Assembly: GCA_017546245.1 (NCBI GenBank)
Contig: JAFYXI010000003.1
Coordinates: forward strand, 1 to 64,000
Direction of reading: 5' to 3'
Source of the DNA: Clostridia bacterium
Lineage (GTDB): Bacteria; Bacillota; Clostridia; UBA1381; UBA9506
Length of the DNA: 64,000 nucleotides
Part shown: piece after piece, positions 45,319 through 49,107 of the stretch
Position numbering within the stretch: position 1 is the first letter of the stretch
How the letters are laid out: each line of letters opens with the position of its first letter
Notes under the pieces: model-generated
The model's database searches: none
What the model was told of the DNA's origin: nothing
The model's input: only the letters and a program-made list of their open reading frames with translations
Position numbers and translations under genes: made by a program

Positions 45319-46170
45319 CTAAACACTATAATCTGATAAAAGCTCCATTGCACCCTTTATTATATCGTCATCAAGTTTTACATCACAAAAATGCTCATAA
45401 GCGTATACTGCCTGTAATACAAACATACCAAGCCCATTAAGAATTTTTGCACCACGTTTTTGTGATTCTTCTAAAAATACCGTTTTTTTAGGATTATAAA
45501 TCAAATCACAGCAAACGGTTTCTTCATTAATCATACCCATATGCTCGCTAAAAGGATTTTCACTCTCATACGGATGCATACCAAGCGGTGTTGTGTTTAT
45601 TATAATATCATATTCATCTTGCTTATCAAGCTCATAAAAAATACTACAATCAGAATGTTTTGTAACTATTTCGCCAATAGTTTCGGCTCTTTTTTTAGTT
45701 TTTGCAAAAAAGGTTATTGACTCTATTTCCTTTTTAGCCAGTTTATATGCAACCCCACGAGCTGCACCGCCGGCACCAAGCATCAGAACCTTTTTACCTT
45801 TTAAATCGCCAACAACATCTTCAAGAGATTTAACAAACGCATCTCCATCGGTATTATAGCCGTACCATTTTCCGTCACGGTTTACTATTGTGTTAACCGC
45901 CTCCATTATTTCTGCCTCGGGGTCTATAAAATCTATACATTTCATTATATCTATTTTATATGGTGCAGTTATATTAAAACCACGGGCATCCATTTTAGTC
46001 AGTGCCTCAACTATTGGTTTTAAAGCTTCTGCCGATTCTATCTCAAAAGCAAGATACGACATATCTTTGCCTGTTTTTTCAATAAAATAACTGTGTATTT
46101 TTGGAGATAATGTATGAGCCAAAGGCTTGCCAAAAACGCCTAAAAGCTTTGTATCTTTAGTTGTGTTCAT
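45319..46170 (-). CDS. aroE: Shikimate dehydrogenase (NADP+)
   Basis: AroE reduces 3-dehydroshikimate to shikimate in aromatic amino acid synthesis. The 283-aa protein has the substrate loop LGVFGKPLAHTLSPKIHSYF, the catalytic Lys in GFNITAPYKIDIM, the NADP-binding MLGAGGAARGVAYKLA and the INTTPLGMHP and LNGLGMFVLQAVYAYEHF motifs. AAGGACG precedes the ATG. The gene starts 2 bases after the oapA-like stop, so aroE may be cotranscribed with the OLE-RNA partner gene. That link is positional only. Confidence 0.97.
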   Translation of the reverse strand: MNTTKDTKLLGVFGKPLAHTLSPKIHSYFIEKTGKDMSYLAFEIESAEALKPIVEALTKMDARGFNITAPYKIDIMKCIDFIDPEAEIMEAVNTIVNRDGKWYGYNTDGDAFVKSLEDVVGDLKGKKVLMLGAGGAARGVAYKLAKKEIESITFFAKTKKRAETIGEIVTKHSDCSIFYELDKQDEYDIIINTTPLGMHPYESENPFSEHMGMINEETVCCDLIYNPKKTVFLEESQKRGAKILNGLGMFVLQAVYAYEHFCDVKLDDDIIKGAMELLSDYSV

Positions 46171-46172
46171 AT

Positions 46173-46826
46173 TTACACGTCCTTAGATTTTCTTTTTTTG
46201 TCTTTAGTCTTTTTATCTTTAACAGGAGCTATAAAGCTGACTATTTTTCCTACCGTAAACATAATCGAGTTGCAGTTCATAAGAGCTATTCCCTTACCGA
46301 ATGCTTTTCCGCCTACGGTTAGTGCCGCAACAACACCTGCTAAAATAACAGACAAAATAAATTCGTCACTTTCAGGCATCATAACGTGCAGCATAGCAAC
46401 AATTGCGCCCGATGCACTACCTGAAACAATGCCCGAAATATCACCGATAACGTCATTACAAAAGTTACCCACCTTATCGGCATTTCTGATTAAACGTATA
46501 GTTTCTTTTGCTCCGCGCACCTTGCGTGAACTGAGCGAATGAAACGGAACCTCTGATGCCGCTGTTACAGCTGTTCCGACAATATCAAAAATAATTCCGA
46601 TTAAAACAAAGCCGATTAAAATCATAAATGCCCATATAATATTTACCTTACTCATAAGACCTGCCTGAAGCATTTGCATTATACAGGATATGAAAAATGT
46701 CCAGATAATAATTTTTACTATCCAGCTGTAGCTGACTTTGCGCCATGAGGTATTATTTGACCTTACTTTAATTTTTGTATTCTGTTTCCCCGCGTCTGCG
46801 TCCAAAACATTCACCAAGCCTTTCAT
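46173..46826 (-). CDS. oapA: OLE-associated membrane protein A (OapA-like, DUF21/CNNM-like)
   Basis: The 217-aa membrane protein has a basic N-terminus, helices at about 36-57 and 63-88, a pattern SEVPFHSLSSRKVRGAKETI and LIRNADKVGNFCNDVIGD that mirrors the DUF21/CNNM core (small-residue motif, short basic helix, then IGNxLxN-like GD), helices near 140-175 and 190-205, and a Lys-rich tail. OapA is the known protein partner that holds OLE RNA at the membrane and is encoded right next to it. Here it starts 85 bases after the inferred RNA end. It has no evident ribosome binding site before the ATG, and in-frame TTG or GTG codons inside are alternatives. Confidence 0.85.
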   Translation of the reverse strand: MKGLVNVLDADAGKQNTKIKVRSNNTSWRKVSYSWIVKIIIWTFFISCIMQMLQAGLMSKVNIIWAFMILIGFVLIGIIFDIVGTAVTAASEVPFHSLSSRKVRGAKETIRLIRNADKVGNFCNDVIGDISGIVSGSASGAIVAMLHVMMPESDEFILSVILAGVVAALTVGGKAFGKGIALMNCNSIMFTVGKIVSFIAPVKDKKTKDKKRKSKDV

Positions 46827-46850
46827 AAACTTTACATAAGTATAAAATAC

Positions 46851-46870
46851 GGTTCGCTAAAAAGCGAACC
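46851..46870 (-). terminator. Terminator-like hairpin between OLE RNA and oapA
   Basis: GGTTCGCT (46851-46858) and AGCGAACC (46863-46870) form an 8-bp stem with a 4-base loop. On the minus strand it is followed by GTATTTTAT, a modest U tract. It may end most OLE transcripts while letting some read through into oapA. Confidence 0.6.
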
Positions 46871-46910
46871 TTAAAACTTAAAAATAACATATTATTATGT
46901 ACCCTATGTA

Positions 46911-47590
46911 AGGGGGTGGTAATGCAAAAGGTTAATTTTACGGTTTAGGTTCGGTAGGATTTCCCGATGCGCAACCGATTCGTCGCCAAACCGGCGGTTT
47001 CCCTTTAAACGCAGCCTGCCGGATTTCTCCTGACAGAACCGAATCGCCACTTAAGTCCGTACTGCAATCCCTAAAGCACCTCAAAAGAACAGCCTAGAGG
47101 TTTTCCCAAACAGTCAAACTCGTTCTTAGCCTCTTTTGCAACTATGGTTTCAAGCAGCGATAACGCAAAACCTTTGGCCGAAGATTTTGTGCCTGATCCG
47201 CTATCCACCATACCCACTCAAGGCAGGCTACACTGCACACAGCGCGCCTTAATCGCAAGCCACAGGCTATGTCTTAAATTAAGACCGTTTGCTATTAGCA
47301 AACTGCGAAGAATTTGCACCGCAACGCAGGTTTAATCCTGTTTCGTACCTCGTTACGTCTTGTTCGGCAAAAAGCCTTATCAAGAGCATGCAAAAGCACA
47401 AGAACAGGTCTCCACGGAAAAGGGGTCGCATCCGCATGCCATTGCAGACTGCCCCTAAACCTTAACTCCCAGCACCAACCCCCGACTGGGCGTCGAAAGC
47501 AAGCACCAGGAACTTCATCGATATGCCCTTCAACGGATTTTTAGGCCCGTCCTGGGAACGAGAAGCACTGACTAGGATACTGCACCACCA
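46911..47590 (-). ncRNA. OLE (ornate, large, extremophilic) RNA, about 680 nt
   Basis: This 897-base gap without a gene has its own promoter (47597-47625). The 5' end GGTGGTGCA (47581-47589) can pair with TGC-ATT-ACCACC at the 3' end (46915-46926), closing the RNA. Internal helices include CCAGGA/TCCTGG (47506-47511 with 47550-47555), CCCAG/CTGGG (47468-47472 with 47486-47490), AGGGG/CCCCT (47421-47456) and GTTTGCT/AGCAAAC (47287-47303). G+C content is visibly higher than in flanking spacers. OLE RNAs are about 600 nt, lie next to ispA and oapA and associate with the membrane. Size, synteny and the partner gene all fit. Confidence 0.85.
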
Positions 47591-47596
47591 TATGTT

Positions 47597-47625
47597 ATTT
47601 TAACATAAATTTTTAAAATAGTAAA
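47597..47625 (-). promoter_or_regulatory. Promoter of the OLE RNA
   Basis: On the minus strand TTTACT (47620-47625) and TAAAAT (47597-47602) are exactly 17 bases apart. Transcription would begin near 47590, at the first base of the closing helix. Confidence 0.65.
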
Positions 47626-47640
47626 TTGCGAGTAAATCAC

Positions 47641-47662
47641 ATTGTAAACCAAGATTTACAAT
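47641..47662. promoter_or_regulatory. Palindrome upstream of the OLE promoter, candidate operator
   Basis: ATTGTAAA (47641-47648) and TTTACAAT (47655-47662) are perfect inverted repeats with a 6-base spacer, ending 16 bases upstream of the -35 box. A dimeric regulator could bind here. A weak terminator is the alternative. Confidence 0.45.
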
Positions 47663-47723
47663 TTTTAGCCATTTTATTCGATTTTTTAAGTTTATCTCTT
47701 TCATTCTCGGTTTTTCTTCATTT

Positions 47724-48194
47724 TTAAAGGGTATATATAATAACCGAAACTAAAATACCCACCAATGCTCCTGCAAATACCTGAAGCGGTGTGTGACCTA
47801 ATAATTCTTTAAGTCTTTTGCCGGTAACCTCTAAGTTTTCGTTACCGAAGTTTTCAATAATTTTATTTAATATTTCTGCTTGCTGACCTGCTGCACGTCT
47901 TACGCCCGATGCGTCGTACATAACAACAAACGATACCACGATACATATAGCAAATGCAGCTGATGCCAGTCCCTCTTCATATCCGACAGAGGTAGTAAGT
48001 GCAATAACAAACGCAGAATGTGAGCTTGGCATTCCACCCGAGCCTACAAAACGGCGAACATCAAATTTTTTGTCTTTCATTAAAACAAATATAACCTTTA
48101 AAAATTGTGCCGCAAACCAACCTATGAGTGCCGCAATAATCATTTTGTTAGAAAACAGTTCTTCAAAAAAATTCAAATCATTTTCCCCCAACAT
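47724..48194 (-). CDS. Divergent PAP2-family (DUF212) membrane protein
   Basis: The 156-aa membrane protein has the DUF212 signature RRFVGSGGMPSSHSAFVIALTTSVGYEEG near residue 47, with KTLRRFxxxGGMPSSHSA-like phosphatase residues, and MYDASGVRRAAGQQAE near 92. Members resemble acid phosphatases of the PAP2 type and may act on lipid pyrophosphates. DUF212 next to ispA suggests a role in isoprenoid pyrophosphate handling, an inference. It lies 14 bases after ispA. The ATG at 48194 has no ribosome binding site. An in-frame TTG at 48176 after GGGGG is an alternative start. Confidence 0.88.
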   Translation of the reverse strand: MLGENDLNFFEELFSNKMIIAALIGWFAAQFLKVIFVLMKDKKFDVRRFVGSGGMPSSHSAFVIALTTSVGYEEGLASAAFAICIVVSFVVMYDASGVRRAAGQQAEILNKIIENFGNENLEVTGKRLKELLGHTPLQVFAGALVGILVSVIIYTL

Positions 48195-48208: not shown

Positions 48209-49084
48209 TCAGTTGTCCCTTTTTAAAAGATAATCTGCAAGTTCTTCTAAAAACTTAGCTTTATTACCATAAGCCTTTAAGCATTCTTTTGCTTTTTTGG
48301 TGTAATCATCAAGCATTTGCTTTGATTTTTCTAATCCGTAAAGGCTTACGAATGTAGTTTTTTCGTTTATTTCATCTCCGCCCGTCATTTTGCCGAGAAT
48401 GTCGCTGTCGCCTTCTACGTCTAATATATCGTCTTTAATCTGAAATGCCAGACCTAAATTTTTAGCATATTCACCAAGATTGTTTATATCCTCATCTGCC
48501 GCCCCACCTGCAATTGCACCTAGCTTAGCTGCCGCTATTATAAGTGCACCTGTTTTGTTAAGGTGAAGCGCATCTAAAGTCTTTTCGTCAACCTTTTTGC
48601 CCTCTGATTCTATATCTATTACCTGTCCGCCTATCATACCTTCTGTACCGCCGGCTGTGGCAAGAACATCAATTTCTCGCAGAGTTTGCTCAGGCGAAAG
48701 CTCTGAAAACTTTACAGATATTTCAAACGCTTTGGTTAAAAGTGCATCACCTGCCAGCACAGCCATTGCCTCGCCGTAAAACTTATGATTTGTAGGCTTG
48801 CCGCGACGCAAATCGTCATTATCCATACACGGCAAATCGTCGTGTATAAGCGAATAGGTATGTATCATCTCTAAGGCGCACGCAAACGGCAATACCTTTT
48901 TGCCGCTGCCAAAAAGCTCGGCACAAGCTAAAGCCAGTACAGGTCTTATTCTTTTTCCGCCTGCAAACAAGCTGTATGCCATTGCATCGTATATAGTTTT
49001 TTGATAATTATCTGCCTTTTCAAAATATTTTTCTAAAGCAAGGCTTACCGTTTCTATTTTTCGGCCAAACTCTTCTTTAAACAA
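48209..49084 (-). CDS. ispA: Farnesyl/geranyl diphosphate synthase (short-chain polyprenyl synthetase)
   Basis: IspA condenses IPP with DMAPP to give GPP and FPP. The 291-aa protein has SLFAGGKRIRPVLALACAEL, the first Asp-rich motif LIHDDLPCMDNDDLRRGKPTNH with the two-residue insertion typical of bacterial FPP synthases, and the second motif FQIKDDILDVEGD. No ATG precedes the conserved region at proper spacing. I chose TTG at 49084, nine bases after GGGGG. A TTG at 49093 abuts that site. It belongs to an xseB-ispA-DUF212-OLE-oapA locus, the conserved setting of OLE RNA. Confidence 0.95.
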   Translation of the reverse strand: MFKEEFGRKIETVSLALEKYFEKADNYQKTIYDAMAYSLFAGGKRIRPVLALACAELFGSGKKVLPFACALEMIHTYSLIHDDLPCMDNDDLRRGKPTNHKFYGEAMAVLAGDALLTKAFEISVKFSELSPEQTLREIDVLATAGGTEGMIGGQVIDIESEGKKVDEKTLDALHLNKTGALIIAAAKLGAIAGGAADEDINNLGEYAKNLGLAFQIKDDILDVEGDSDILGKMTGGDEINEKTTFVSLYGLEKSKQMLDDYTKKAKECLKAYGNKAKFLEELADYLLKRDN

Positions 49085-49107
49085 AAATATCAACCCCCAA
49101 AATCTAT

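Follow-up and report, generated by a model that had tools for sequence, protein, structure and literature searches.

The window, by which we mean the whole stretch of 64,000 nucleotides analysed here from an uncultured clostridial genome, carries an OLE RNA directly followed by oapA within an operon of isoprenoid and DNA-repair genes, and we put the probability at about 0.95 that this ole-oapA cassette is functional, has a ribonucleoprotein role like that in Halalkalibacterium halodurans and appears, within the window's family, to be interchangeable with an MpfA-type protein. OLE is a large, still mysterious bacterial RNA that is thought to be located at the membrane, and to our knowledge it ranks among the largest conserved RNAs of bacteria for which no biochemical function is known. 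What the sequences themselves offer as evidence is the RNA with its closing stem, OapA with its DxxxD motif, the linkage and co-occurrence of the two, and their mutual exclusion with MpfA.

An OLE RNA locus had been proposed in a preliminary description of this DNA, together with a search of the minus strand at 46900-47600 with the Rfam OLE covariance model, RF01071. In cmscan this search gave a match at 46900-47604 of 473.1 bits (E = 1e-135; gathering cut-off 50 bits) that ran across the entire model (positions 1-616 of 616), and a covariance-model scan of the neighbourhood found no Rfam family other than OLE. Judged by this match, the segment is a genuine full-length OLE RNA with an enlarged side arm. 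The same description called it a divergent member of the class, which holds for the enlarged side arm and not for the core, which is ordinary and full-length; its suggestion that the locus extends the range of the class is not supported, because OLE has been reported in 2,822 Bacillota genomes, uncultured gut lineages among them (PMC11332333). We found OLE in 37 of 61 genomes of relatives and in none of 14 unrelated control genomes. Neither OLE nor OapA was found on phages or viral contigs, and the one match of OLE on plasmids was NZ_AP023421.1, a 504-kb record of Pusillibacter faecalis called plasmid pMM59_01, in which OLE and a gene for a CNNM-domain (OapA-like) protein (L239:7986-9222) lie in a chromosome-like dxs-tlyA-argR-recN context. 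Since that context is normal for a chromosome, the record is probably a chromid or second replicon, and the reading as a mobile OLE was set aside.

Table 1. Features of the ole-oapA locus and its neighbours (window coordinates)
Feature	Positions	Strand	Basis and remarks
ispA-type polyprenyl (farnesyl) diphosphate synthase	48209..49093	-	PF00348 E 6e-60; NF045485 E 1e-110
DUF212 (divergent PAP2) gene, next upstream of ole	47724..48194	-	PF02681 E 2.3e-52
Probable ole promoter, TTTACT-17-TAAAAT, TG before -10	47597..47625	-	pattern scan; similar extended -10 in relatives
OLE RNA (RF01071), full-length type	46900..47604	-	705 nt in match; probable transcript start near 47590
Closing stem, 5' strand GGUGGU	47584..47589	-	covariation with 46915-46920 in 30 OLE RNAs
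Side arm P7	47336..47408	-	73 nt; putative name, by helix order
Side arm P8	47233..47330	-	98 nt, three terminal hairpins; putative name, by helix order
Closing stem, 3' strand ACCACC	46915..46920	-	covariation with 47584-47589 in 30 OLE RNAs
Terminator-like hairpin between ole and oapA	46851..46870	-	present by scan; G003 has a similar GGTTCGC...GCGAACC hairpin
oapA, 217-aa membrane protein	46173..46826	-	directly downstream of OLE; DVIGD (DxxxD) at residues 125-129
aroE (shikimate dehydrogenase), downstream of oapA	45319..46170	-	TIGR00507; abuts DUF212 gene in most OLE-lacking family relatives

The RNA lies, as described earlier, in a gap of 897 bases (46827-47723) with no plausible gene inside. 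The minus-strand promoter with 17-bp spacing is also present (Table 1), and, although the number of such motifs is within chance (8 found against 5.3 +/- 2.4 in shuffles), it is probably real, because most of 30 relatives have an extended -10 of the form TATGnTAnnAT at this position or slightly upstream of it. As for the terminator-like hairpin before oapA, the hairpin is there, but its U-run is weak and interrupted (GTATTTTATA). A perfect 12-base AU-rich complement (47590-47601 with 46881-46892) flanks the closing stem in this genome and overlaps the -10 region; it was not seen in the sister genome G003.

The ends of the RNA had been described as complementary (47581-47589 with 46915-46926), and the pairing is real with a core of 6 bp in the window, where only the first six of eight pairs form. 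In 30 OLE RNAs, standard pairs made up 94% of the cells in the first eight pairs, as compared to a mean of 74% and a maximum of 83% in shuffles and 30-47% with slid partners, and the exchanges seen were T-A/C-G, T-A/G-C, G-C/A-T and A-T/C-G. The consensus line of RF01071 has no pairs at these ends. On the aligned sequences, then, the 5' and 3' ends of OLE pair in a closing stem that covaries and is not drawn in the Rfam consensus; its inclusion could improve the Rfam model. In one family of the order (f4; L018 and L020-L030), this stem has a conserved bulge of one base behind its third pair, at the 5' end of OLE.

Two long arms, P7 and P8, follow the P5/P6 region, and P8 consists of three hairpins on a common stem. 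Among 75 RNAs measured, this three-hairpin branch was common to the OLE of the window and only two near relatives, G003 and G004, and the arm at the P8 position was 14-61 nt in the 72 other parsed RNAs. The enlarged P8 is variation at a known variable place, because the part of OLE from J6/7 to P8 commonly varies (PMC12265935). We lean towards regarding it as a neutral insertion without function, in line with the reported variability of the region and a fold energy that is only mildly unusual (z-score -1.7); against this reading, G003 and G004 keep a similar multibranched layout even though the hairpin sequences have diverged among the three genomes. The P13 loop GGCGAC with its flanking stem and the other conserved motifs are intact, and the P13 region is the OapB-binding region in published work. 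The intact loop therefore places the OLE of the window, by sequence, with the full-length type and not with variant 1 or 2 of PMC11332333. The OLE fragment of another relative (G002, contig C94, L237) and the OLE of G012, which belongs to another genus, have identical P7 arms, and the G002 assembly has 5% contamination, so that the OLE status of G002 is doubtful and the fragment may be contamination.

The gene directly 3' of the RNA had been taken for an OapA-like membrane protein gene, and this assignment was upheld by its motif, its linkage, its restriction to OLE-bearing genomes and its predicted fold. The DxxxD motif, DVIGD in this protein, was invariant in 22 aligned sequences; it sets OapA apart from CNNM domains, which lack it (PMC11332333). 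An OapA homologue was found directly 3' of OLE in 28 of 30 loci of relatives, and of the two exceptions L013 is accounted for by the end of a contig, while G005 is a real unlinking. In G005, ole (L036/L236, contig C6) has remained in the ispA operon, where it has its own promoter and is followed by a strong hairpin, and oapA (L235, contig C21) lies on another contig, upstream of the LPG_synthase_C gene. The OapA profile matched in 35 of the 61 genomes, all of them OLE-bearing; in the two other genomes among the 37 with OLE, the RNA is found at contig ends only, and the profile search found no OapA in the 24 OLE-lacking genomes. The window's own genome gave a match to the profile. Outside this set, OLE was just upstream of oapA in all 12 loci chosen from a genome collection of mostly named Bacillota species (Clostridium, Alkaliphilus, Lederbergia, Lentibacillus, Halalkalibacter and others). 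For the 217-aa protein itself, neither Pfam nor NCBIfam gave a match, and thus no CBS or CorC domain was seen in it. Its AlphaFold model had a mean pLDDT of 76, and the top five PDB matches were CNNM proteins at moderate strength (best E 3.4e-3, TM 0.42); the CNNM Pfam model also gives weak matches to some relatives of OapA. The sequence evidence identifies this gene as a true oapA, and with moderate confidence the predicted fold of its product is CNNM-like.

On the minus strand, OLE is preceded by genes for a trmL-like SpoU methylase, an OGG-type glycosylase, xseB, ispA and the DUF212/divergent PAP2 protein, and is followed by oapA, aroE, a gene for an LPG_synthase_C-domain protein, trmFO and a helicase gene which, from its sequence, we presume to be pcrA-like. 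The earlier placement of the RNA between ispA and an OapA-like gene is thus correct for the downstream side only; the order DUF212-OLE-oapA puts ispA one gene further upstream and not directly beside OLE. The two other known protein partners were also looked for. OapB was not found in the window's genome, because the ribosomal-protein operon seems to be missing from the assembly: infA was not found either, the map-infA region is apparently unassembled, and the KOW Pfam model gave one match only, in a NusG-sized frame. In the sister genome G003, a 91-aa protein between map and infA matched the solved OapB structure 7k9b at E 4.6e-10. A YbxF-type OapC was likewise not found in the window's genome, with the same operon apparently unassembled; its only L7Ae protein is in the nusA operon and is closer to YlxQ than to YbxF, and G003 has two L7Ae proteins.

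Judged from domain and covariance matches, OLE and full-length MpfA-type (CNNM) proteins are almost mutually exclusive in the 61 relatives. A full-length CNNM protein (75 bits or more) was present in 24/24 OLE-lacking as compared to 4/37 OLE-bearing genomes, with a Fisher p of 3e-13 that ignores kinship and is inflated by shared ancestry. Within the window's family, the counts were 6/6 and 1/14, respectively, and the one OLE-bearing genome with such a protein, G003, encodes a distant paralogue that shares about 30% identity with the others; the co-occurrence in the other three OLE-bearing genomes is not explained away. Among the proteins examined, L073, L077 and L079 of OLE-lacking genomes and L078 of G003 combined CNNM with two CBS domains and CorC_HlyC, which is the architecture of MpfA in published work (PMC11332333). 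The anticorrelation and the idea of replacement were already published (PMC11332333); what is added here is the fine scale of the exclusion and the empty site in the operon. In G001, G007, G013 and G019, all OLE-lacking, the DUF212 gene lies about 65-130 bases from aroE, and the two being joined, the ole-oapA cassette is simply absent; in G016, more than the cassette was lost. The CNNM-CBS-CorC_HlyC proteins of OLE-lacking relatives are encoded elsewhere, outside this operon. The OLE-lacking genomes fall at about three points in a tree of shared operon proteins, some deep branches of which are weakly supported, and G006, outside the tree, is a possible fourth, so that about 3 to 4 lineages of the family lack OLE independently. 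At the deletion junction of G013, 11 nt match an OLE loop, but the idea of an OLE remnant was dropped because no Rfam signal was present there.

From these sequence patterns, the OLE complex and an MpfA-type CNNM-CBS-CorC protein appear to be interchangeable in the window's family, and we infer that MpfA serves as a replacement of the OLE complex, in agreement with the published idea that it can do so. The exclusion could instead reflect differential loss from an ancestor with both, or unrelated lineage history, an explanation that we consider possible but would not favour. In its favour, the losses of OLE are few, and the MpfA-type proteins of the family members without OLE fall into a single clade, as expected from a shared ancestral gene; on the other hand, the MpfA-type genes stand in different contexts in G001, G006, G007 and the clade of G013, G016 and G019 (g3), which favours separate acquisitions, and a CNNM protein is present in every one of the 24 OLE-lacking genomes. 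Repeated gain of mpfA and differential loss are both possible, and even differential loss, whichever partner was lost, would imply that their functions overlap. In a further genome (G040, contig C140), the MpfA-type protein L220 groups with the window's family and not with its own genus, owing to either horizontal transfer or a contaminant contig. A bolder form of the replacement reading, which we offer tentatively and at somewhat less than even odds, is that OLE-OapA was lost cleanly from the same operon several times in the family with an independently placed MpfA-type protein taking over each time, and that the OLE of the genus acquired a structured arm of three hairpins, to which a partner specific to the lineage could bind; if true, these genomes would show several recent cases in which a protein has naturally replaced an RNA machine. 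It is highly improbable that the OLE of this locus is a decayed or non-functional pseudogene kept by chance, as the cut of its closing stem to 6 bp might suggest, given 473 bits over all 616 model positions, intact motifs including the P13 loop, an intact oapA, a conserved promoter form and covariation that keeps the stem in relatives.

In H. halodurans, OLE RNA, OapA, OapB and OapC form a membrane particle that is needed under Mg2+, cold, alcohol and poor-carbon stress (PMC12265935, PMC9723947). An OLE locus is expected to give an abundant, stable RNA at the membrane and an OapA that binds this RNA as a dimer. By homology, we infer transcription, membrane localisation, RNA-protein binding and a stress function for the locus in the window. 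The promoter near 47600 would give an OLE RNA of roughly 690 nt, the ends of which would pair and close the fold, and the co-oriented oapA just downstream would supply the CNNM-like membrane protein that the RNA, folded and probably dimerised, would bind. The resulting membrane ribonucleoprotein may help the cell to withstand Mg2+, cold, alcohol and nutrient stress, a stress role as in H. halodurans being our best guess. The locus itself is one more example of OLE, and its value lies in closely related species, some of which have ole-oapA at this operon while others lack it; as these relatives also differ in having an MpfA-type protein or not, they lend themselves to a comparison of whether a protein can do the work of the RNA and make the locus somewhat more interesting than a plain further example.

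As compared to the OLE of H. halodurans and other Bacillota, the RNA described here matches the whole model, has the conserved motifs and the P13 loop, and is likewise followed directly by oapA with ispA in the operon; it differs in its length (~705 nt instead of ~600 nt), mainly because the P7 and P8 arms are longer, and in the DUF212 gene between ispA and ole. OLE variants 1 (TANB77) and 2 (RF39) also come from uncultured gut-type Bacillota, but P7-P9 are short or missing in them, whereas the OLE of the window has long P7 and P8 arms and an intact P13 loop. The protein resembles known OapA in its DxxxD motif, its length of about 200 aa, its helical membrane character and its linkage to ole, and differs in sequence, being 36-44% identical to its homologues from the order's other families and 80% identical to that of the nearest member of the genus. 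The likeness to MpfA/CorB, which are CNNM-CBS-CorC Mg2+ exporters, lies in the CNNM proteins that come first in the fold search with this OapA, in the weak CNNM matches of its relatives and in the MpfA-type genes that relatives have in place of ole-oapA; the difference is that MpfA has CBS and CorC_HlyC domains and no RNA, whereas OapA has the DxxxD motif without such domains.
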